A DNA stretch of 22,578 nt from a virus: positions 1 to 22,578 of IMG/VR virus record IMGVR_UViG_3300025652_000608; one strand, given 5' to 3'. Positions 7,336-20,557 of the stretch are shown in pieces. Position numbers and translations under genes: made by a program. Each line of letters begins with the position of its first letter. The stretch's first letter is position 1. Under the pieces are notes generated by a model. The model was given only the letters and a program-made list of their open reading frames with translations. It did not search any database and was not told the DNA's origin.

Positions 7336-7950
7336 CTATTTCAACCAATCATAGACCTTATTTGTTTCTTTAATCCTGTGATCTAACCCCGTGTACCCGC
7401 CGTTTATCCTGCGGGTCAGGCGTTTAATTGCATCATCATTAACACCTTCGTCACAAATTTTCCATAGGTTGTTAGACTCAAAGAACCAGATAGCGGTATC
7501 CATAGCGTAATCCTCTTCAAGAAGAGAAGGATCTTGAATAACTTCTGGCTTACCCATGTCCGCAGCAAACGCTTTGACGTTGTCATACCCGGTTAATTGA
7601 AGAAATCCTCGGCCTATGTATAGGCCGGCTTTTTCCTTAGAATCGTTACCCATTCTTCCAAGATACACATTTTCAGCAAGTGCTTTTGGGTTTCTAGCAA
7701 ATGGTTCTGCGCTTTCTTCTGTTGGAAAACGGCTAGGCCAAACCTTCATCATAGCCTCTACGCTGTAGTTTAGGTTTTCTCGCACATATTTAAATGTGCC
7801 GCTTTCATGTATAACCTGACCTAAGAGATGCGCTCCACGTTCTGGAGACAGTTCGTAGTGCGATACAATGCCTCTAGCTGTGTTAGGTCCAAATGAACCA
7901 TCTGCAGTGCATCCACATTTTTCCTGTAATAGTTTTAAAGCATTACTCAT
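7336..7950 (-). CDS. Endolysin, glycoside hydrolase family 19 (chitinase-like lysozyme)
   Basis: This 204-residue enzyme cleaves the peptidoglycan glycan strand at the end of infection. A short N-terminal helical segment (ALKLLQEKCGCTADGSFGPN) looks like a partial peptidoglycan-binding repeat. The catalytic domain follows: the H-E-S-G motif places the general acid at Glu49, a second acidic residue, Glu58, lies in VRENLNYS, and the substrate-cleft motif GRGFLQLTGYDN lies near residues 113-124. The end has WFFESNNLW and RRINGGYTGLDHR, both typical of phage GH19 lysins. There is no signal peptide, so release depends on the holin encoded just upstream; the ATG overlaps the holin TGA by four bases (ATGA). 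The length matches typical phage GH19 lysins. Confidence 0.9.
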   Translation of the reverse strand: MSNALKLLQEKCGCTADGSFGPNTARGIVSHYELSPERGAHLLGQVIHESGTFKYVRENLNYSVEAMMKVWPSRFPTEESAEPFARNPKALAENVYLGRMGNDSKEKAGLYIGRGFLQLTGYDNVKAFAADMGKPEVIQDPSLLEEDYAMDTAIWFFESNNLWKICDEGVNDDAIKRLTRRINGGYTGLDHRIKETNKVYDWLK

Positions 7951-8351
7951 TTTGTAATTCCTTGTTTCTTTTCATAGCTGCGGAGTCCGCCCAAACCGAG
8001 CATTCCCATCATCACAGTCATCAAACTGCCCATATCAAACTCTGGCAACGCAGGTATGTCTACACCAGCGGCAGTTACACCAAACACAATCAATGGCTGT
8101 AAGACAAAGTGATATGCAAAAGCAACGCCACATACCCAACCTATGAACGGTCTCCATCCACCTTTGAATAAAGAACCCGATGCAGCTTCGGCTTTGTTTA
8201 TTTCTAACTGCCCCATTAGCGCCTGCTGGGCATGATTGTCGGACATTGTGGCGATCTCATGGGCCAGCTTGGCCTTTTGATCTTTGTCCTCAATAACTTT
8301 GTCTAGTAGCCCACTAACAGGCCCTATCAAATTACTTACTAAACTCATCAT
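7947..8351 (-). CDS. Holin, 3-TM GTA-release type
   Basis: This 134-residue inner-membrane protein should form the lesion that lets the endolysin reach the wall. An amphipathic N-terminal part with a charged helix (residues 17-58) is followed by KGGWRPFIGWVCGVAFAYHF and a second hydrophobic run (LQPLIVFGV), then a last hydrophobic helix around 108-124 (MGSLMTVMMGMLGLGGL) and a basic tail. The GWRPFIGW.C......H signature is that of the 3-TM holin family named for gene-transfer-agent release. It overlaps the endolysin start as ATGA and begins at the TAA of the EF-hand gene, so holin and lysin are translationally coupled. Two adjacent ATG codons (8351, 8348) could serve as start. Confidence 0.85.
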   Translation of the reverse strand: MMSLVSNLIGPVSGLLDKVIEDKDQKAKLAHEIATMSDNHAQQALMGQLEINKAEAASGSLFKGGWRPFIGWVCGVAFAYHFVLQPLIVFGVTAAGVDIPALPEFDMGSLMTVMMGMLGLGGLRSYEKKQGITK

Positions 8352-8671
8352 TAGTTATTCGCCTTTCCTTTTGTGTAGGCCTCCTTGCCGTAGAACGCGG
8401 CAACGATAGCAGCTACAGAAACAAAATACACACCAGCTATAGACGCCAGTGATTTCATGGCTTCATCAAGATTAGCCAAGTTACAAATAATTATTGCGAA
8501 AGGGTACAACAACATGCCGAATAATGCAAACCATGCCATTTGCCGTTGAGCGTCTCTTTGAGCATCCTCGTCAGCCATTCGCAAACGTTTGTCTTCTAAT
8601 GCTAACTTATCCCACTCAGTTTGGTCTATTGTGCCGCTACCATCTAAATCGGCTTTTTCAAATTCTGTCAT
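8351..8671 (-). CDS. Two-TM membrane protein with an EF-hand calcium loop
   Basis: This 106-residue protein carries a canonical EF-hand loop at residues 8-19 (DLDGSGTIDQTE): liganding positions 1, 3, 5, 7, 9 and 12 are Asp, Asp, Ser, Thr, Asp and Glu, with Gly at 6 and Ile at 8. A charged helix (RLRMADEDAQRDAQRQ) then leads into membrane helices at about 46-66 and 76-94 and a basic tail. It lies directly before the holin with a TAATGATG junction and has an AGGAG site. I recall this EF-hand plus two-TM arrangement in marine phages without a tested function. It could gate the lysis pore or be a second holin whose state depends on calcium; both are inference. Confidence 0.75.
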   Translation of the reverse strand: MTEFEKADLDGSGTIDQTEWDKLALEDKRLRMADEDAQRDAQRQMAWFALFGMLLYPFAIIICNLANLDEAMKSLASIAGVYFVSVAAIVAAFYGKEAYTKGKANN

Positions 8672-8680
8672 GTTAATCTC

Positions 8681-9190
8681 CTAATCTGCCAACGGGTTGT
8701 CTAACGCCCTTTGTAGCTTACCCATTAATTTATCTTCTAGCTCTTTCATATCGCCGCTTTGTGATACTCTAACACGTTCTCGTTGATTTTCAAATCGTAC
8801 TTCTGCATTGTCTATCATCTTGCGAACTTTGTCCTCAGACTCTCGAACCATGTCTTCTATGCGGTCTGTCTGCTGCTCGATGCGTAATATATCATCTTTC
8901 AAACCGTTCTTAATGTCTCGACTGTACTCCACAGATTCTTCTACCTTATCGGCGATACCCGTGACTTTTGCATCCATGACATCCATCGCTTGTTGGTACG
9001 CACCTAGGTCTAACCCCGCAACCTCCTCGATCTTTTGGTACATAACAAACCCACCGTACAAACCACCTACCACTGTAGATAAGAACGCAAGTATAGCCAT
9101 GATAGACCCAAACGACATCTTCATGCCCCCTGTCTTAAACTCACGATCTGCAAGCCCATCAATGTTATCTGCTATCTTGGTTGTATCCAT
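8681..9190 (-). CDS. Membrane-anchored coiled-coil protein
   Basis: This is a 169-residue protein with a short polar N-terminus, one hydrophobic segment at about 26-51 (FGSIMAILAFLSTVVGGLYG and following), then a long helical, heptad-rich part (residues 60-165) with many Asp/Glu/Arg/Lys. There is no cysteine and no cleavable signal. The start overlaps the upstream TAA (TAATGG). Its position between the exported cassette and the holin, and the TM-plus-coiled-coil architecture, recall i-spanin (Rz-like) proteins. However, it lacks a partner o-spanin with a lipobox, and the coiled coil is longer than usual. It could otherwise be a virion or inner-membrane adaptor. The name is descriptive only. 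Confidence 0.65.
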   Translation of the reverse strand: MDTTKIADNIDGLADREFKTGGMKMSFGSIMAILAFLSTVVGGLYGGFVMYQKIEEVAGLDLGAYQQAMDVMDAKVTGIADKVEESVEYSRDIKNGLKDDILRIEQQTDRIEDMVRESEDKVRKMIDNAEVRFENQRERVRVSQSGDMKELEDKLMGKLQRALDNPLAD

Positions 9191-9588
9191 TAGTTTTCAA
9201 ACTCCATTTCGCCATCAGCGTTTTGTAAGTTCCTTAGTTGTTCTATTTCATCTCGTAGTTTTTGTATCTCCAACCTGCGTTGCGTCAACTCGATTTGATA
9301 AAGATCATCACAGTTTATACGGGATTTAGGTTTATCTAAAGGTATAACGACACGCGCATACACGCCTATGTTTTTGCCACGGCTGTTAGTATCTAAGCCC
9401 GAAATAACTCCGGTTACACCATACTCTAAGTTTATACCTCCACCGACAGCATTACTGCACCGTGTAGTACCTGTTGAAAACGAATCCGATTGATAGTTCA
9501 TCGGAGGGCTCGGCAACGCAAGGGAAAGAGAATTACTGTCGGCCACAGCAGAACTCGATATAACACAAAGAACTAACGCTAATCTCAT
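9190..9588 (-). CDS. Exported coiled-coil protein of the secreted cassette
   Basis: This is a 132-residue protein with a clear Sec signal peptide, MRLALVLCVISSSAVA, cleaved after AVA16. The mature part has two cysteines (44 and 93), likely one disulphide in the periplasm. Between them lies a Gly-rich beta region (CSNAVGGGINLEYGVTGVIS; GKNIGVYARVVIPLDKP), which could be a short outer-membrane-like or beta-hairpin segment. A C-terminal heptad helix follows (residues 96-122, IELTQRRLEIQKLRDEIEQL), suggesting oligomerisation. I chose the ATG at 9588 because it overlaps the upstream TGA as ATGA and starts exactly at the signal peptide; a longer frame to 9615 would bury the signal. Its role is unknown; it is last of five exported proteins. 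Confidence 0.68.
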   Translation of the reverse strand: MRLALVLCVISSSAVADSNSLSLALPSPPMNYQSDSFSTGTTRCSNAVGGGINLEYGVTGVISGLDTNSRGKNIGVYARVVIPLDKPKSRINCDDLYQIELTQRRLEIQKLRDEIEQLRNLQNADGEMEFEN

Positions 9589-9971
9589 GTGGGGGGCCCA
9601 TCTAATCTGGAACATATTCTAGACGATATTAAAGTTTGGGACGTGTCAGTCTTTTTTACTTTTGATGTAGTACACAGATATACCGCTTCGGGAGTATCTT
9701 GCTTCCTTATGTAAACATCAAAATCTTTATGCTCTTTGTAGTCAACCTTTATGATTCTATACGTTGTAGAAAAAGGTATGTTCATCCAGTTCAAATCAAA
9801 CAAATCAATCTGATAGTATTTTATTTCTTCTCTGGAATTAAATAGAGTCATCTCTACCTTGACCACGTTTTTAACATGGCTTGGCTTTACTTCTGGGTAG
9901 GCGGGGATCATCTCATGTGCTGTTACACAGGACCCCCAAACCAAAAAGAATATGATTAACTTACTTAGCAA
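9585..9971 (-). CDS. Exported Ig-like mini-protein, resembles half a pilus chaperone
   Basis: This protein of about 128 residues starts at a TTG codon (9971) that gives an ideal signal peptide, MLSKLIIFFLVWGSCVTA. The only upstream ATGs in frame (10,040 and 10,031) would add a polar extension in front of it. The mature part is beta-rich: KVEMTLFNSREEIKYYQIDL, FDLNWMNIPFSTTYRIIKVD, then YKEHKDFDVYIRKQ and AVYLCTTSKV...SSRICSR. The order (hydrophobic strand, N-rich turn, Y-x-I-x-x-F-D, P-F, strand, strand, Cys) recalls the N-terminal Ig-like domain of periplasmic pilus chaperones, but only one domain is present. Two cysteines near the end could pair. It directly follows a pilin-like protein. 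The similarity is of pattern only, and the start codon is my main uncertainty. Confidence 0.6.
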   Translation of the reverse strand: MLSKLIIFFLVWGSCVTAHEMIPAYPEVKPSHVKNVVKVEMTLFNSREEIKYYQIDLFDLNWMNIPFSTTYRIIKVDYKEHKDFDVYIRKQDTPEAVYLCTTSKVKKTDTSQTLISSRICSRLDGPPT

Positions 9972-10449
9972 TGCAGCTTGCCTGCACAACAGCAGTGTAT
10001 GTTCCTCCTGGGAACGGTTTGGCTGACCCATAAGTTGCACTAGATGCAGTAGAGAACCATGTTGACCCTGCCAATGTTAAGTTAAAGTTTGTAGTGTTAC
10101 CCACCACTGTCTTAGCTGCTTCGTAGGCTGACATGCCAGCAACAGACGTTTGCGTAACGCTTGTACTACCCGTCCATGCAATCGTATCTGAAAGCGAAGG
10201 AGACGAGCTAAAAGCTGTCGGGTGTGTTATACTAGCTATGTAAGAATCTGCGATTGAAACGTCATACCGGATTATAGGCAGTACACCTCCATCTGCAGGA
10301 GTAGTGCTCAACTTACTAGCAATCGGGTTGCCATATGAACCCGCTTTAGTTGTTTGTATAATGCATTTAGCTTCTACACTACCTGTGATCTCGACGTTAG
10401 CTATTGCAGGAAATGCAACTAACGAAAGTATTGCTATTGAATATTTCAT
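9961..10449 (-). CDS. Exported pilin-like beta protein with a terminal disulphide
   Basis: This 162-residue protein has a clean signal peptide, MKYSIAILSLVAFPAIA, with AIA before the cut. The mature protein is a run of short strands and contains exactly two cysteines, C29 near the start (GSVEAKC) and C159 four residues from the end (VVQASCIAK), ideally placed to tie the first and last strands together. The ending PFPGGTYTAVVQASCIA resembles the final strand of fimbrial subunits and spore-coat-U-like domains (P.G.Y...V.V). I start at 10,449 because GAGG lies six bases upstream; an ATG at 10,461 overlaps the upstream TGA as ATGA and is also possible (166 residues). It is followed by the Ig-like mini-protein. 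Function unknown; self-assembly outside the cytoplasm is an inference. Confidence 0.65.
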   Translation of the reverse strand: MKYSIAILSLVAFPAIANVEITGSVEAKCIIQTTKAGSYGNPIASKLSTTPADGGVLPIIRYDVSIADSYIASITHPTAFSSSPSLSDTIAWTGSTSVTQTSVAGMSAYEAAKTVVGNTTNFNLTLAGSTWFSTASSATYGSAKPFPGGTYTAVVQASCIAK

Positions 10450-10457
10450 ATTAAACC

Positions 10458-11327
10458 TCATCTATTGTACTGCATATCGACCATCTGTTCGTGCAGTATT
10501 TGTTGTGCTAAGTTATTACGCAAGGCTTTCTTGTTGTCAGGTATCTCTGAGTCAGCAAGACCGGGGGCGTCAGCATACACGCCTCCATTGATAGATGCAT
10601 TGTAGTACATAGCTATGTTTGTCTGTTGATTTATAGCCATGATAATATCATCTTGTCCTTGTGTCTTAAATAGGGTCAATGCGTTGGCAGACGCTGTTAG
10701 ACCCATTTCAATTCTAGTTTCTTCTTCTTCTTCCTCTTCAGAAAGAATTAAATTACCGTCTTCATCGTACTGAAACTCCTCAGTTTCTAACGTTTCAACA
10801 ACAGCATCATCTTCAAGTGCATTATACACCTCTATCACAGGAAGAACAGGCATGGGCTTTACATACCCCGGACAGTTAGGGTTGGACTGCGGGTCAAAAC
10901 ACTCATCTACTCGATAACTATATATAACCACAGCATCTTTGACCGTGCCCTGCCCTTCAACGTCAATCGAACCTGCACCCCATTGAGTGGCTGGAATGTT
11001 AGAAAGCGGGAACGATTTAACAATGGTGTTGCCCGGAACTCCTGACCAATCGTCAGTTTCTCGAAAGATATAGCCACCTGCGCCAGCCTTCTTATTGCTA
11101 ACATGAACTTTCATATCATCCTCTGGGTTTTTCACAGTGGTGTATCTGTATATAAGACCGTTTATATCAATCCCTGGAACATCAGGCAGAACAGAATTCA
11201 TCCCCCAGCTTAGTGCTGTGGACGCTGCGTTCCCTGTTGACCCATAACTATAGGGGTCACATTGCGAGTAAGAAGGCCAGAGTGCTAATAATAACACCCA
11301 ACCCCAATTTAGTTTCAACATCTTCAT
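10458..11327 (-). CDS. Exported protein of the secreted cassette, 289 residues
   Basis: A Sec signal (MKMLKLNWGWVLLLALWPSY, residues 1-21) precedes CDPYSYGSTGNAASTALSWG. The central region is beta-rich (LIYRYTTVKNPEDDMKVHVS; GGYIFRETDDWSGVPGNTIV). A cysteine pair lies in DECFDPQSNPNCPGY, and an acidic stretch with a run of glutamates follows (near residues 186-205). The C-terminus is helical (LTASANALTLFKTQGQDDII; ALRNNLAQQILHEQMVDMQY). No lipobox is present (YSQC is not one). It overlaps the upstream gene by 71 bases and shares ATGA with the downstream pilin-like gene if the latter starts at 10,461. I do not recognise a characterised family, although proteins with this pattern occur in marine phage contigs. 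Confidence 0.65.
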   Translation of the reverse strand: MKMLKLNWGWVLLLALWPSYSQCDPYSYGSTGNAASTALSWGMNSVLPDVPGIDINGLIYRYTTVKNPEDDMKVHVSNKKAGAGGYIFRETDDWSGVPGNTIVKSFPLSNIPATQWGAGSIDVEGQGTVKDAVVIYSYRVDECFDPQSNPNCPGYVKPMPVLPVIEVYNALEDDAVVETLETEEFQYDEDGNLILSEEEEEEETRIEMGLTASANALTLFKTQGQDDIIMAINQQTNIAMYYNASINGGVYADAPGLADSEIPDNKKALRNNLAQQILHEQMVDMQYNR

Positions 11328-11832
11328 TGAAAATCTTTCTCATTGGGTTTCTCTGTTCGTATTTAATTTGATCATCAACAGCTTGCATTTCCCATGCCAG
11401 CCTAGCTTTATCCCCCACCAACCCATCCTTGGGACAGGGCGTCCCCGCGTTGAGCATGGCTTCAAACACTCTTTCGTCCTGACACATTACGGATACGGCT
11501 GCCACTTTCATACCCATATCGTACATGGTTTTGGCGTTCTTTAATTTTTCGCAATTCATATCCCGCACAGTTCTACCTGCAGAGATACCAAGTATCTGTG
11601 TTTGCACAGCACCAGCTACACCTACCGTGCATAAATCTGAGTTACTGTTGCTAATCTGTGGAGAAATTGCAGAAGGTGGTGGACTTTTAACAGTAGTATC
11701 CATCGACCCAGTAGACGTAACAGTGCTGTTAGTGTCCGTTTTTATTACATCATCTTCAGCAAAGACAGTGTTCCCTACAGTGATAAAAAAGAACAGTGCT
11801 GTAAATAAGCGAATCTTATTAAACTTGCTCAT
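11257..11832 (-). CDS. Exported protein with C-terminal membrane helix, 191 residues
   Basis: The signal peptide spans residues 1-25 (MSKFNKIRLFTALFFFITVG, then NTVFA before EDD). A Ser/Thr/Pro-rich linker (TGSMDTTVKSPPPSAISPQI) leads to a small conserved core with four cysteines (68, 94, 117, 133): DLCTVGVAGAVQTQILGISA, MNCEKLKNAKTMYDMGMKVA, CQDERVF and GTPCPKDG. A final hydrophobic stretch (176-191, LGLGVIISTLAFLLAM) should anchor it in the membrane. I recall the DLCTVG...AVQTQ..GIS.G.TVRD.NCE core in marine myo- and podophages, always unassigned. AGGGGGT precedes the ATG, which begins two bases after the portal stop, so it is expressed with the late genes. Confidence 0.7.
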   Translation of the reverse strand: MSKFNKIRLFTALFFFITVGNTVFAEDDVIKTDTNSTVTSTGSMDTTVKSPPPSAISPQISNSNSDLCTVGVAGAVQTQILGISAGRTVRDMNCEKLKNAKTMYDMGMKVAAVSVMCQDERVFEAMLNAGTPCPKDGLVGDKARLAWEMQAVDDQIKYEQRNPMRKIFNEDVETKLGLGVIISTLAFLLAM

Positions 11833-14314: not shown

Positions 14315-15777
14315 TAGTAATACTCCCGTTTACGAGGGACGAAGTCATCCCCATCGTCTTCTCCGTCTAACGAAATAAACCCGCCTTGTCGAAAACGCAT
14401 TAGTGCTAGTGTCATACTATCACAAAAATCATCATTGTCACCATTGGGAAATGAAACTACTTCCTCAATGACTTCTTCTGCAAATTTCTTATCGTCCGGA
14501 GCCCATACCATTCCTGATTCAAACATAGGAGCTACCATATGCATCCGGCTAATTTTATCATTCCCTTTACCTGGGGAGAAACCCAGTGCGGGGATGCCTT
14601 TAAGTCTTAGCTCTTGAATCAAAGGCGTACCTGTAGCTTTAGCCTCGATCAGAACCATGTCCGGCTCCCAGTATTCGTATTCTTCGAAAGCCTGTTCTTT
14701 TAACTCTGGAAAATTCCATCGTCCTCTTTGTGCGTCTAACAGAATAATGTGATCTGGGCCACCTTCTTCTGGTTTGAACACACCCCAAGTAGTAATTGCA
14801 GAATAGTCGGCGGATTCTTTTTTGGAGAACGCTGTATCGTAAGACTGCAGTACATAATCCAATCGAGGAATCTTTTCCTCTTCCCAACGGTTCCACCACT
14901 CTCGCTTAATAATAGCAGATTCAGATCCCGTGGGGTTCTGCTGCCACTGAGCGTTCCATTTCCCAACAGGCAACGAAGCTTTAATCGACAGCAAAGCGTC
15001 TTTTGCCCAGAACTCAGGCCACAACGGCTCGTCACTAGGCATAATTGCAGGAAATTCCACAACTTCCCACTGATCCGACATGATATCGCTGCCCTGTTGG
15101 GCCAGTAATCTGCCTGTTAAATCTTTTTTACCCCAACGGGTCATAACAATTATGATAGCGCCGCCCGGCTGTAGACGTTGTCTAGGTCCAGAGGTGTACC
15201 ATTCGTATGCATGGTCGAATGCAGTAGAGCTTAACGCATCTTGTTCCGAATGCGGGTCATCAATGACGAGTAAATCCGCACCACGACCCGTAATGGCAGC
15301 GCCAACACCCGCCGCAAAGTACTCAGCACCCAAGTCAGTGCCCCAAGTGCCCGCGCCTTTATTGTCTTCTTTAAGGTTTGTATTCGGAAAAATAGTTTTG
15401 TACTCTGGGTCATCGATTAAATCCCTCACTTTACGTCCAAATCTCACCGCCAACTCAGTGTTGTGTGTGGCTTGGATGATTTTTAATTTAGGATTTCTAC
15501 CTAGAAACCAAGCAGGCATCAAGTAGGATGCAAACTCAGACTTCGAATGACGCGGAGGCATGTTGATAATCAATCTCTTGAGTTCTCCTCGCGCAACACG
15601 TTCAAGTTTTTCGGCAATAATCCGGTGATGACGGCCCTCGATGAAATTATCATACACATGATGGACAAAGGGCATGAAGCTTTCGTGAGCCTTTTCCCTC
15701 AAGTCCATGCGTTTCTTGGCCTCGGTTAAGGCCAAGATTTCTTTTAACGCTTCTTCTGGTAGTGCTTGTAAGTTCAT
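14314..15777 (-). CDS. terL: Terminase large subunit (packaging ATPase/nuclease)
   Basis: This 487-residue motor protein pumps and cuts DNA at the portal. The ATPase half has a Walker A-like loop PPRHSKSE (74-81) after RLIINM, an adenine-side ATHNTELAVRFGRKVRDL, Walker B LLVIDDPHSEQDA with Asp173-Asp174, and the coupling motif MTRWGKKDL (212-220). The nuclease half has the RNase H-like acidic residues Asp314 (QSYDTAFSKKESADYSA), Glu378 (DMVLIEAKATG) and Asp453 (DNDDFCDSMTLALMRFRQGG). The end is acidic. The ATG overlaps the stop of the giant virion gene (ATGA) and its TAA overlaps the portal ATG. All expected motifs are present and the length is normal. The small subunit is not identifiable in this window. 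Confidence 0.93.
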   Translation of the reverse strand: MNLQALPEEALKEILALTEAKKRMDLREKAHESFMPFVHHVYDNFIEGRHHRIIAEKLERVARGELKRLIINMPPRHSKSEFASYLMPAWFLGRNPKLKIIQATHNTELAVRFGRKVRDLIDDPEYKTIFPNTNLKEDNKGAGTWGTDLGAEYFAAGVGAAITGRGADLLVIDDPHSEQDALSSTAFDHAYEWYTSGPRQRLQPGGAIIIVMTRWGKKDLTGRLLAQQGSDIMSDQWEVVEFPAIMPSDEPLWPEFWAKDALLSIKASLPVGKWNAQWQQNPTGSESAIIKREWWNRWEEEKIPRLDYVLQSYDTAFSKKESADYSAITTWGVFKPEEGGPDHIILLDAQRGRWNFPELKEQAFEEYEYWEPDMVLIEAKATGTPLIQELRLKGIPALGFSPGKGNDKISRMHMVAPMFESGMVWAPDDKKFAEEVIEEVVSFPNGDNDDFCDSMTLALMRFRQGGFISLDGEDDGDDFVPRKREYY

Positions 15778-18700
15778 CTAGATGTAGCCGCCGTATAGGT
15801 CCTTCTATCATATTGTTGTCTTCGTTGTCCGGGGCCCGTGTCCCCAGGGCGTATAGTCTGTCCTGTATATGGTCTAGTACCTGCACCCGCCCGTAATCGG
15901 TAGGACTCCTCGATCTTAACACAAGTAGGACCGTTAGGTGCATCCACAAGCTCGTACCCTTCTGGACATTCCATAACAGGATTACCCGCAACATTTACGC
16001 CAAGAGCAGGAGCTACAGTGCCACCACCCGTGTCTACAGGTAGACCAACTGTTACCCCGTCATCTGTTTCAGTAAACGTTGGAGTTACAGGATTATCGTT
16101 GTCATCCTCTGGAGGGACATAGGCGGTGTTGTACGGAACAAACGGGCTGTTGGTGTTCGTAACAGTTTCCACAGGAACTTCTGCTGCAACATTGTTGACA
16201 GTTTCGTCTGTTAGAAGTCTTGGAACTTCTTCTACCGTCTTCATTCCCGGAACCTCATCTTCGATACTGATCGTAATCCCCTCGGTTGGGTCAGCTACCT
16301 CAGTGTTGTTCGGAATTACCACCTCAGTGCCTGCTAGGTTTACATCAGTTGTAGCCGCAGGTTGCACATCGAGCATGTCAGGGCGACGAGTATCGACAGA
16401 AGTGCTTTCTGGAACCTCAACTTCCGTAAAGATTGTTTGTAGATCGTTTTCTACTACCGTGCCTTCACCAAGTTGAGACTTCCCGTCAACTGAAAGGTTT
16501 GCTTGGTCACCGATAATGCTGCGTAAATACGCAGCCGAGTCTGATAGAACTGAATCATTGATAGGAACAACATTATCTACAGTCACAGACCCGTCAATCT
16601 CAGGAGTGTTAAGTTTTGGAGCCACAGCGTTTTCATATGCTGCGTTCCCCGCTGCTTCCGCTGCTATTGCATCCCCAGTTTCCGCTAAAGTCTGGGTATA
16701 CGACTGTTCTTGAGCCTGTATAGCGGCGTAGTTTTCTTGAGCCTGCTGATCAGAAACCTCGGATAAGACCGAAGGAGGTCCTTGGTTCGCGCCAACAGTG
16801 GATACTTCGGTAATTTTGCTTCCGAAGTGTACATTCCGCTCATTTTCGTTGGTCGTATCATAAATTTCAACAGGCTGAAATCCAACTTCAGGCTCTGTAC
16901 TAAACGTAACCGTTTGACTGTAGTCATCCCCAGCTTTTCTAGGTCCAACATCTTCTCTCAAAACTAACTTAGCTGTACCGTCTCCTACAACCAGTTCGGT
17001 AGGAACCTCGGTGTTTTGAAAAAGACCACCAATTTCCATTACCGCGTCATTGTTCATAAAGATAGTTTGCTGGCTACGAGGCTGTACACCTGAAATTTCC
17101 CCGTCTGGCTGACCAAACCTAGTGCGCTCCGCTCGATCTCTGACCGTAGTGCCGTCCCCAAATGCGTCATAAGTAGAGCCTTTAGCCGTTGTGAACGTCT
17201 TAACTGGATCCGCTGATAAGACCGAAGGAGGGCCAGTGTTTACCTCGGGGGCCATAGGAGCAAGTTCAATGCCACTCATGGACGAAAGAAGGTTGGCGTT
17301 TGCTGTTTCACGCGCTGCTGCTTCCGCTTCCTGACGTTTAGCCGTGGCAGTGTTAATGTCATTCTCTAGGAAAAGATCGAGGGCCGTCTGACCGTTAAGA
17401 CTTTCACCAGCATTGGCTTGTTCAATAACGTCCGCTGCCATTTCTTCCGACAACATCGAGTTGATTTCGGAAAGAGTGTCCTCGTTTATGCTTCCAGACT
17501 TAGAAACTTCGTCCCCAGCTATTAAACCAAGCATATCCGCTTTTTCACGGGCTGCTCTTTCAGATACCTCTGTAGCAACCTCAACTGCATCTTGCATTGG
17601 AAGCTCTAGTTTAGAGGCTAACTCAACAACGTTACCTGTTGTTGCAGACTGCTCGAGAGAAGCATCATTCAAGATCATCTCAGATAGCAACGCTGAACCG
17701 TCACTCATAGACTTCAGCCGTGCTTCCTCCTCCATCATAGTAGTTTGATCTGTAACTTGCGTGTTGTTATCCGCTCGAGGCGTTACCATAGGTCCTTGAG
17801 CAAATCCGGAAAGATCATATGACTTACCATCTATGGCGTCAAACACGTTGTCATATGAAGTAGTAACAGATGAATCCGCTATGTTTCCTGCAGTAGGACT
17901 TAGATCTGGATTTAAGATTGAACCGTACAAAGTATTTCCAGACGGGTCCACCATCGGTCCGCCATCTGGTCCAGTAACCGTGCCATCTGATGCAATCCCA
18001 GAGTTATTTGAGCCATCGGTGTTAACAGATTTAACCGCATTGGGATTAAATCCTGGAGGCGAAGCCATAACAGCCCCCGCTCCACCAAGAGCCGTACCTA
18101 CGGCTGCACCTTCCTCATCAAACACAGGATAAATTTCATCTATGTTTTGTCCGTCACTTTGTATAACGGATTCAGCAAGAGTGGGTTCTAAGAATCCTTC
18201 ACTTGCAAACCCTTCTAAGAAAGGAGCCGTATATTTTGTTTTGCCCGGTATTTTATTCATCAACCCAAAGGTTAAACCTTCAACTATACCCATACCAGCC
18301 GCGTAAGGCGTGATCTTCTGGACATAATCATTTTTCAACTGAGCCGCTTGATCGTTGCTAATAGGACCAAATTCTCCGTTAGCGATCCTCGAATCCATCC
18401 TGTTTTCAATCTCAGTAACAAGTTCCCCTGTGGTCATCGTTGCACCAAGACCCGCACCTGCAAGAGGGTTAAGCATAGAAGTCCCGACGATAGCCGCTGT
18501 AGTAGGAGCGCCGTACACGATTTCAGAGAAGAGAGCCATTGGATCGGGACCAAAGGACCCAGTTCCAAAGATGTCTCGGTCCTTCGCCTGACCAAATGTG
18601 GTGTCTTTAATATCCTCAAGACGCTGTTCTTTGCTTGCTTGGATTGTATCCGCAAAACCTCCGATAGTGTTAGCTACCTGATTGTCTGTTCCCGCAACCA

Positions 18701-20147
18701 TGCCCCGCCGATTTGGATCTGCACCCAAAGCTCTAGCAAAACCAGGGTCAATCTCAGAAATAACATTCCCGCTAGAATCTAATTGTGGAACGCCACTTAA
18801 TGCATCGCCAAACATATACTGATCCGCCGGATCAAAATAATCTATACCTTTTTCAAGACCACGGGTAACCAGTTCTCCCGCTTGCATTATACCTGCTGTA
18901 GTAAGACCGCCAATGCCAGTGCCCTCACTGGCTGCGTATTCTGCTTCCGATTCGGCCCGTAAACGGTCATTCTCCATAATCTTTGTCTGTAACGCACTAG
19001 GGAACCCCATGCTCGGAGGACCGGTGTTCGGTAAGTTAGCATCTCTTAAAAAGTCTTGTTGAGTGTAGTCCGCGTAACTTGTAGCGTTCTGAGCAGTCTG
19101 AACCCCACCTTCGTCAAGCGCAGCCAACTGAGCCTCAAGTTCACTAGGAGTAGAAACGCGGTTCTGGAAGTTCATCACCGTGTCTTCGTAACCAGGTAAA
19201 CCGCCTATCCCACCTATATTGTCTGTAACACGCTCGTTATCGCTGAATGTATTGCCGCGATCCGCGAAATCTAACTGTGCCGCCGCTGCAAAAGGACTGC
19301 CGCTTGCAGTCTTCGTGTAATCTACCGGAGATACAAAGCCCGGTGACCCCGCGCCAGTAGTAAAATAATCTTGAACCGCTCCAGCATCAGGCTGAATCAT
19401 GTCACTAGGTGCAGGAGCCGCCAATAAATCTAACGGGCTAACGTCTGCCATACCCGCTGCTTCAAGCTTCGCGTTGAAATCTAACGTTGGTTCTGGACGA
19501 AGTTGCGGACGTGGACTGGTTTCGGGAGCCAAGTCCGTAGTGTAACTCTTACCGCGATAATCAAATGTTTTGTCGCCTCCACCCGCCGCTCGGGCCGCTG
19601 CAAACGCATCGTTAAAAGAACCAGAATCGTCAGATCCACCCGTGAAACCATAGTTGGGTTTAGGAGTGTAGTTGGTATTGCCTACCTGTGCTGCATACGA
19701 ATCGCTCGCACCAAAACTTTTAAAGCCGGATTTGATAAACTCAAGAAAATCCCCGTCAGTAGCCGAAGACTTGGAAGCAGCATAGGGACTGCCCTCTTTC
19801 ATAGAGATTTCTGCAATCTTAGCTTTGTTATTATTATTGCCATCGTTGCCTGCAACAGAAACAGCCTGCCCTAACCCTGCATCTTTGTTCGCGCCAGTGT
19901 ATGTACGAGTAAGCATCTCGCTGCCGTTCTCGTTTGTACCGTGAGAAACCCATGAGAATCCATCGCCTGCATATGTACCGTGTTTTGAAACAGAACCAAG
20001 TTGCTTTGTAGGAGCGCCTTTGGCTAAATTGCCTGTGGCTTTTTTCTTCGAAGACTTGTTATCATTGTTGCCGCCACCGCCGCCGCCACCTTCACTGTCA
20101 AAAACTACTGGGTTTAGATGCCGTAATGGCCCAAATAAATGTCTCAT
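15774..20147 (-). CDS. Giant virion protein, likely internal/ejection protein
   Basis: This is a 1457-residue protein. The N-terminus holds a run of glycines then Asn/Lys (SEGGGGGGGNNDNKSSKKK), followed by long low-complexity, Ser/Asp/Ala-rich stretches. A hydrophobic, Gly/Ala-rich block at about residues 535-690 (GAPTTAAIVGTSMLNPLAGA; AAGMGIVEGLTFGLM; GAAVGTALGGAGAVMA) looks able to enter membranes. A short motif NxGPPSxxS recurs three times (near residues 372, 970 and 1118). Near the C-terminus MECPEGYELVDAPNGPTCVK is a small two-cysteine module seen in phage virion proteins. It is encoded between the lysozyme-like gene and the terminase, each junction overlapping by ATGA. Size, membrane-active block and position suggest a protein ejected with DNA, but I recognise no catalytic domain. 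Confidence 0.7.
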   Translation of the reverse strand: MRHLFGPLRHLNPVVFDSEGGGGGGGNNDNKSSKKKATGNLAKGAPTKQLGSVSKHGTYAGDGFSWVSHGTNENGSEMLTRTYTGANKDAGLGQAVSVAGNDGNNNNKAKIAEISMKEGSPYAASKSSATDGDFLEFIKSGFKSFGASDSYAAQVGNTNYTPKPNYGFTGGSDDSGSFNDAFAAARAAGGGDKTFDYRGKSYTTDLAPETSPRPQLRPEPTLDFNAKLEAAGMADVSPLDLLAAPAPSDMIQPDAGAVQDYFTTGAGSPGFVSPVDYTKTASGSPFAAAAQLDFADRGNTFSDNERVTDNIGGIGGLPGYEDTVMNFQNRVSTPSELEAQLAALDEGGVQTAQNATSYADYTQQDFLRDANLPNTGPPSMGFPSALQTKIMENDRLRAESEAEYAASEGTGIGGLTTAGIMQAGELVTRGLEKGIDYFDPADQYMFGDALSGVPQLDSSGNVISEIDPGFARALGADPNRRGMVAGTDNQVANTIGGFADTIQASKEQRLEDIKDTTFGQAKDRDIFGTGSFGPDPMALFSEIVYGAPTTAAIVGTSMLNPLAGAGLGATMTTGELVTEIENRMDSRIANGEFGPISNDQAAQLKNDYVQKITPYAAGMGIVEGLTFGLMNKIPGKTKYTAPFLEGFASEGFLEPTLAESVIQSDGQNIDEIYPVFDEEGAAVGTALGGAGAVMASPPGFNPNAVKSVNTDGSNNSGIASDGTVTGPDGGPMVDPSGNTLYGSILNPDLSPTAGNIADSSVTTSYDNVFDAIDGKSYDLSGFAQGPMVTPRADNNTQVTDQTTMMEEEARLKSMSDGSALLSEMILNDASLEQSATTGNVVELASKLELPMQDAVEVATEVSERAAREKADMLGLIAGDEVSKSGSINEDTLSEINSMLSEEMAADVIEQANAGESLNGQTALDLFLENDINTATAKRQEAEAAARETANANLLSSMSGIELAPMAPEVNTGPPSVLSADPVKTFTTAKGSTYDAFGDGTTVRDRAERTRFGQPDGEISGVQPRSQQTIFMNNDAVMEIGGLFQNTEVPTELVVGDGTAKLVLREDVGPRKAGDDYSQTVTFSTEPEVGFQPVEIYDTTNENERNVHFGSKITEVSTVGANQGPPSVLSEVSDQQAQENYAAIQAQEQSYTQTLAETGDAIAAEAAGNAAYENAVAPKLNTPEIDGSVTVDNVVPINDSVLSDSAAYLRSIIGDQANLSVDGKSQLGEGTVVENDLQTIFTEVEVPESTSVDTRRPDMLDVQPAATTDVNLAGTEVVIPNNTEVADPTEGITISIEDEVPGMKTVEEVPRLLTDETVNNVAAEVPVETVTNTNSPFVPYNTAYVPPEDDNDNPVTPTFTETDDGVTVGLPVDTGGGTVAPALGVNVAGNPVMECPEGYELVDAPNGPTCVKIEESYRLRAGAGTRPYTGQTIRPGDTGPGQRRQQYDRRTYTAATSR

Positions 20148-20557
20148 GCTGCTTTCCTATGCCATTTCTCGTCACGCTTACTACCGTCCGGATACAATCG
20201 TAAACCCTCCGCAGTTTTGATTTCTGGGTAATTATCACACAAAAACGTCTGAATGTCTCGTATAAATCTAATAACCTGCTTTCGACCCGCCCTACATTGG
20301 AACTTCGGAAAGAACAATATACCTTCCTTGCGAGTGAAAACCTCGTCCCCGTCCCATGTATCGGTGTCAATCTCCTCGCGAGTGAAGAACCCCCAAGTAC
20401 AATAACCAACAACCTCACCATTTAACCAATGAACAAAACAACGATCATGGTCTAACGCTGATAGTATTGCGTTTCGAGCCCCGCCAATCGTTCGATCCTC
20501 ATAATAAGTGTCTTCTAAAACCAAAGTCATAACCCTACCAATAAGATCGTAACTCAT
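20144..20557 (-). CDS. HlyC-like acyltransferase candidate
   Basis: This is a 137-residue protein. The core CFVHWLNGEVVGYCTWGFFT resembles the 'NG-x-VVGY-x-TW' strand pair of toxin-activating lysine acyltransferases (HlyC family, a GNAT-like fold). The middle (DTDTWDGDEVFTRKEGILFF, then PKFQCRAGRKQVIRFIRDIQ) matches the family's later acidic turn, hydrophobic strand and A-G-x-x-x-x-I/M helix. The end (GLRLYPDGSKRDEKWHRKAA) is basic. In HlyC a His and an Asp are catalytic; candidates here are His36 or His43 and an Asp near residue 68, but I cannot align them with confidence. The gene ends inside the start of the 1457-residue protein (ATGA), recalling hlyC-hlyA order. It could instead be an unrelated GNAT-type protein. 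Confidence 0.5.
   Translation of the reverse strand: MSYDLIGRVMTLVLEDTYYEDRTIGGARNAILSALDHDRCFVHWLNGEVVGYCTWGFFTREEIDTDTWDGDEVFTRKEGILFFPKFQCRAGRKQVIRFIRDIQTFLCDNYPEIKTAEGLRLYPDGSKRDEKWHRKAA

Follow-up and report, generated by a model that had tools for sequence, protein, structure and literature searches.

A conserved module of predicted exported proteins beside the lysis genes of marine phages

Pelagiphages carry curli modules with CsgG, CsgF, CsgA/B and FecR, which are common to several phage families (PMC9599517). Spanin pairs can be encoded in overlapping genes, and 91 of 677 surveyed phages are without recognisable spanins (PMC6139136). Among proteins of pilus assembly, FGL chaperones have a stabilising disulphide in strands F/G (PMC4133393), and cysteines link strands A and B of archaic pilins (PMC4654587). 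The antiholin RI of T4 has a signal peptide that can be cleaved and is exported (PMC8385771). The module described here resembles pelagiphage curli as a multi-gene module of predicted exported proteins common to several phage families. Unlike the curli modules, it encodes no protein among P1 to P5, cc and ef that matches a curli family of Pfam, CsgG and CsgF included. No description of it was found in the open-licence literature.

The window is the whole stretch of DNA that was analysed, a virus record of IMG/VR with 22,578 bases. Its late genes lie on the minus strand in the order TerL, portal, P1 to P5, cc, ef, holin and endolysin, followed by GroES-like and capsid genes and SU10-type adaptors (Table 1). 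An earlier note on this DNA had described P1 to P5 as five consecutive genes at 9190-11832; the open reading frames have the lengths that it gave, and no gene lies between them. The start of P4 overlaps the end of P3. The last codons of P1 and the signal peptide of P2 are read from the same nucleotides in two frames. This overlap recurs in homologues, also in the pelagiphage HTVC115P after correction of a start: upstream of the annotated GTG start of gp53 (L258, 8602-10002), the same frame encodes a signal peptide, MIKSKSLSIILSLWLLLLLLLVSPSKA, and the start in the deposited record is therefore probably an error. The phage late region of the window also holds a HlyC-like gene and a large protein beside it (Table 1). 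HTVC115P, too, has a gene annotated as toxin-activating lysine-acyltransferase.

Table 1. Coordinates and properties of the module, the adjoining lysis genes and further late features of the window
Feature	Length (aa)	Position	Strand	Properties
P1	191	11257..11832	-	predicted signal peptide; stretch rich in Thr/Ser, followed by one rich in Pro; four-Cys domain (mature Cys68, 94, 117, 133); C-terminal hydrophobic anchor
P2	289	10458..11327	-	predicted signal peptide; N-terminal domain, followed by acidic linker; MVDMQY motif at C-terminus; mature Cys143 and Cys152; C23 at cleavage site, variable
P1/P2 overlap		11257..11327	-	71 nt read in two frames; final 23 P1 codons (hydrophobic anchor) coincide with the P2 signal peptide
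P3	162	9961..10449	-	predicted signal peptide; pilin-like Ig fold (model); disordered N-terminal segment; mature Cys29 and Cys159
P4	128	9585..9971	-	TTG start; predicted signal peptide; one PapD-like domain (model); invariant mature Cys100 and Cys120
P5	132	9190..9588	-	predicted signal peptide; two Cys (mature Cys44, 93); C-terminal heptad-like (coiled-coil-like) segment
cc	169	8681..9190	-	single membrane segment at N-terminus; long coiled coil; C-terminal NPLAD
ef	106	8351..8671	-	EF-hand-like N-terminus (below Pfam cut-off); membrane segments
Holin		7947..8351	-	GTA_holin_3TM type; PF11351, E 8e-24; PHROG_3427
Endolysin		7336..7950	-	GH19-like; PHROG_181, E 3e-47; GH19 match weak
HlyC-like gene		20144..20557	-	weak match to RTX toxin acyltransferase (HlyC), E 5e-5
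Large protein	1457	15774..20147	-	between TerL and HlyC-like gene; no Pfam or PHROG match

None of P1 to P5 matched a known family of Pfam, NCBIfam or PADLOC. PHROG families of unknown function were matched by P1 (PHROG_20531, E 9e-15), P3 and P5 (PHROG_37374, E 4e-8), the last with a weak match in Vibrio phage douglas. P2 has no family match in Pfam, NCBIfam, PADLOC or PHROG. The membrane and coiled-coil layout of cc was assigned by inspection. It has no Pfam or PHROG family match and a homologue in HTVC115P (E 9e-10).

Export signals were called with an explicit scoring rule for the h-region and the -3/-1 site, with a bonus for a charged n-region. P1 to P5 score 2.8-4.9, in line with the signal peptides that the earlier note had read in each of them; the highest score among the remaining 21 genes of the window is 2.2. 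Two genes outside the cassette receive low-scoring calls, and neither has a net positive n-region. By our own arithmetic, exactly five exported genes among 26 would be contiguous with a probability of about 3e-4. The predicted signal peptide is kept in nearly all representative homologues: P1 28/28, P2 31/31, P3 22/24, P4 32/34 and P5 25/26. The residues themselves drift. Mean pairwise identity of P1 is 34% in residues 1-20 versus 81% in the rest; P3, P4 and P5 follow the same trend, and the drift is weak in P2 (60% versus 67%). Retention of the export property while residues 1-20 drift is the pattern expected of real signal peptides. Chance hydrophobic N-termini were considered and are ruled out by this conservation under drift together with purifying selection (median dN/dS about 0.06-0.11). 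Paired cysteines were found in the mature parts of all five proteins, as had been noticed before.

Relatives of P3 (at least 577) and of P2 (at least 550) were found in scans of IMG/VR, and members of the module lie on at least 550 contigs. Gene order was followed in 144 loci distinct in their P3 DNA, of which 123 had enough flank upstream and 112 downstream. The genes are conserved together in the order of the window, as the earlier note required of its reading: P1 is upstream of P3 in 123/123 loci, P2 adjoins P3 in 122 of them and overlaps it in the remaining one (L198), and P4, P5 and cc are downstream of P3 in 112/112. In every locus with enough sequence, cc follows P5, and ef is present in the conserved unit with cc in 74 of 80. 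The conserved unit thus reaches two genes past P1 to P5 and includes cc and ef (8351-9190). Distant versions keep the gene order; examples are L406, on a contig of 173.5 kb, and L402, where a T4-type terminase gene follows. Of 118 loci, 73 encode a protein of 63-78 residues with a membrane segment and a coiled coil directly upstream of P1 (L018 6391-6627, L114 7777-8001 and others). The window is without this small gene, and the portal adjoins P1 instead.

The phages with the cassette differ in their packaging genes. Compared with the window TerL, three groups of terminases are 92%, 46-48% and 36-37% identical. Two further groups have no BLASTP match to the window TerL nor to each other, and their P1 to P5 are still 47-85% identical to those of the window. 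Since the cassette is common to phages with TerL proteins unrelated by BLASTP, it appears to transfer between backbones as a block. Carriers include small podovirus-like phages as well as a phage with a contig of 173 kb. The isolates nearest to the window in TerL are 023Pt_psg01 (61%), HTVC027P (59%) and DSL-LC04 (59%). Cassette profiles found no match in the examined regions of these three, where other small genes fill the slot from portal to GroES. In bacterial genomes, the module was detected on four contigs only, in two metagenome bins. These contigs are probably binned phage DNA, and no host is therefore assigned from them. The Rhodobacteraceae bin with three cassette contigs has an SCPU pilin match (L374, G048:C228; E 8e-28); PapD_N and usher had no match in this bin.

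A simpler core is present in cultured phages. P1 homologues were found in 11 phage records and confirmed, with strong profile support, in ten annotated ones, mostly isolates. Carriers of PHROG_20531 are the pelagiphages HTVC115P, HTVC202P, HTVC023P, HTVC033P, Baldr and Mosig and the roseophages CRP-207 and CRP-810; the metagenomic phage MedDCM-S28-C10 also has the core. The hosts of the isolates are SAR11 for the pelagiphages and Roseobacter for the roseophages. The core consists of P1, a larger protein and a transmembrane coiled-coil protein often ending in NPL, and has an altered form in the two roseophages, with an ef-like protein after cc in CRP-207. The larger protein is predicted to be exported in most carriers and, in pelagiphages, has an acidic linker. 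Its likeness to P2 is one of layout, as the P2 profile finds no equivalents in isolates. Profile support for cc is moderate and covers four records only (HTVC115P, MW202481, CRP-810 and CRP-207); other likenesses to cc are again of layout. Two genes annotated as lysozymes, CRP-810 gp51 (L261, 9162-9584; E 4e-7) and CRP-207 gp73 (L411, 3292-3873; E 2e-6), match the cc profile and read as membrane plus coiled-coil proteins. P3, P4 and P5 were absent from the PHROG_20531 carriers in the cassette-profile search. They look like additions between P2 and cc, the alternative being a loss from the isolates.

Structure models point to folds for P3 and P4. The P3 model is good outside residues 1-25, where pLDDT is below 50. 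Its best structure match in the PDB is the PapGII pilin domain (E 5e-3, modest TM), among other Ig-like adhesins; CfaB and FimG rank lower. The P4 model is one PapD-like domain with a pLDDT of 85. SafB is the best Foldseek match in the PDB (best E 8e-4, TM 0.62 by query), and pilus chaperones make up 33 of the top 50 PDB matches by our own count, the remainder including other PapD-superfamily domains. Matches of P4 in a viral structure library were weak and mostly unnamed. Its mature part of about 110 residues does not reach the size of a two-domain chaperone, about 200 residues or more. The invariant cysteines of P4 fall in strands F and G of the model, a likeness to FGL chaperones, whereas the cysteines of P3 are at other positions than those of archaic pilins. 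P3 is thus predicted to have a pilin-like Ig fold and P4 to be a PapD-type domain. The pilin-like subunit and the Ig-like mini-protein of the earlier note stand at the level of model folds, without confirmation by sequence profiles. In hhalign comparisons of P3 and P4 with PapD_N (PF00345) and SCPU (PF05229), the probability was below 1%, a weak negative because the phage alignments are shallow. As the comparison is without significance, membership in these families is not claimed. A profile search against PDB sequences with P2, P3 and P4 returned chance matches only and was set aside. No usher (PF00577) was found in 47 cassette records, many of them fragmentary and with a host usher possible; the E. 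coli control was positive. Like the chaperone-usher pathway (PapD, FimC, Caf1M, CsuC), the module combines a PapD-like P4 with a pilin-like P3, encoded by adjacent genes and both with predicted export signals. Unlike it, the putative chaperone has one domain, no usher was found, no profile match is significant and the genes lie in a phage lysis region.

A lipoprotein gene is the usual mark of spanins. In a simple pattern scan of the window, no convincing lipoprotein (o-spanin) gene was seen, only two chance-like open reading frames. Scans of other loci gave one convincing case among 11, about 1 kb upstream of P1 in L402. Since almost no lipoprotein gene was found, the module is perhaps in place of classical spanins. 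It is similar to the two-component spanins (Rz/Rz1) in adjoining holin and endolysin, in the i-spanin-like layout that cc shows by inspection and in the overlapping frames for the P1 anchor and the P2 signal peptide. It differs in having far more proteins, no family match and no lipobox in representatives of P1 to P5, cc and ef. Lysis genes follow the cassette in the window, as had been claimed, and do so in most other loci. In 74 loci with 5.5 kb of sequence downstream of P3, an endolysin lies within this distance in 68 and a holin-like gene in 69. The endolysins are of unrelated families: GH19-type (PHROG_181), GH108 (PF05838), a PG_binding_1 protein and Hydrolase_2. Lysins and holins vary between loci, while P1 to P5 and cc are constant. 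Among phages with the core, HTVC023P, HTVC033P and MW202481 have a gene for peptidase M15 or lysozyme next to it. The core of HTVC202P, Baldr and MedDCM-S28-C10 adjoins the terminase instead, and no adjoining lysin was seen.

The earlier note had offered surface change, exclusion of other phages or help in release as possible roles of the cassette; its location favours help in release. P1 to P5 and cc, usually joined by ef, make up one mobile late unit in the lysis region of many marine phages, with proteins predicted to be exported or to lie in the inner membrane. We tentatively propose, with less than even confidence, that it serves outer-membrane passage at release. The hosts are presumably Gram-negative. 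The genes, their order, mobility, purifying selection and the lysis neighbourhood are seen in the sequences, and the signal peptides and the folds of P3 and P4 are predictions; from there we infer assembly into a complex, a partnership of P3 and P4 and a role in release. P1 by its C-terminal anchor and cc by its N-terminal anchor and coiled coil would face the periplasm from the inner membrane. P2 and P5 would serve as linkers in the periplasm. P3 would have a pilin-like domain that requires a donated strand, and the single PapD-like domain of P4 would hold or cap it. Together with holin and endolysin, the envelope complex would breach the outer membrane at release, or condition it, and so do the job of lipoprotein spanins elsewhere. 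Against a role in release, an outer-membrane anchor was predicted in no member of the module, and no lysin was detected in 6 of the 74 loci. The three phages with the core beside the terminase and the lipoprotein gene of L402 also speak against it. Adjacency to lysis genes is not function, and the need for a pilin-like protein in lysis is unexplained.

A rival explanation is a surface or periplasmic fibre of P3, polymerised by donor-strand exchange with P4 as the chaperone, that would coat or link infected cells. Such a fibre could serve superinfection exclusion, aggregation or the capture of sibling cells, as proposed for pelagiphage curli operons. The best structure matches, a pilin domain and pilus chaperones, agree with it, as do the constant adjacency of the P3 and P4 genes, the N-terminal segment of P3, disordered in the model as expected of a donor strand, and the precedent of curli modules shared by several pelagiphage families (PMC9599517). 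The fibre is nevertheless rather unlikely: no usher was found in the 47 records, P4 is a single domain as against the two domains of pilus chaperones, and sequence profiles relate neither protein to PapD_N or SCPU. It also leaves the association with lysis genes unexplained, and the core of the isolates does without P3 and P4. A related idea joins the fold predictions to the lysis region. A phage chaperone and pilin-like pair without an usher might use donor-strand exchange to build a structure that spans the periplasm or pierces the outer membrane at the end of infection; this is unlikely.

Two further explanations concern other stages of the infection. The exported proteins may sense or delay lysis through the holin, as the T4 antiholin RI does. 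The module adjoins holin and endolysin, RI shows that a lysis regulator can be exported, and the EF-hand-like ef could respond to calcium. Five to seven proteins are many for an antiholin, however, and one cassette accompanies differing holin types, which makes a timing function improbable. Ig-like folds are common among virion decorations, and the genes lie in a late operon between portal and capsid genes. The N-termini could then be membrane-targeting signals put to another use, and the proteins could end in particles. This is the least probable explanation. Virion proteins of tailed phages normally assemble in the cytoplasm, whereas Sec-type signals are kept across five families here, and the module moves between phages with unrelated packaging genes.

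Compared with the earlier note, the unit is two genes longer, is transferred between unrelated phages and has a simpler core in isolates. This module of six to seven genes, shared by unrelated marine phages, has no described function and matches no described phage system. The ten annotated records with a profile-confirmed P1 homologue are mostly isolates, and the question can therefore be addressed experimentally. A module for opening the outer membrane would be relevant to the release of progeny by phages without recognisable spanins. A piercing structure without an usher would be an outer-membrane route that uses neither spanins nor usher. As the source of a fibre, the module would join curli as the second surface system carried by phages of the ocean.
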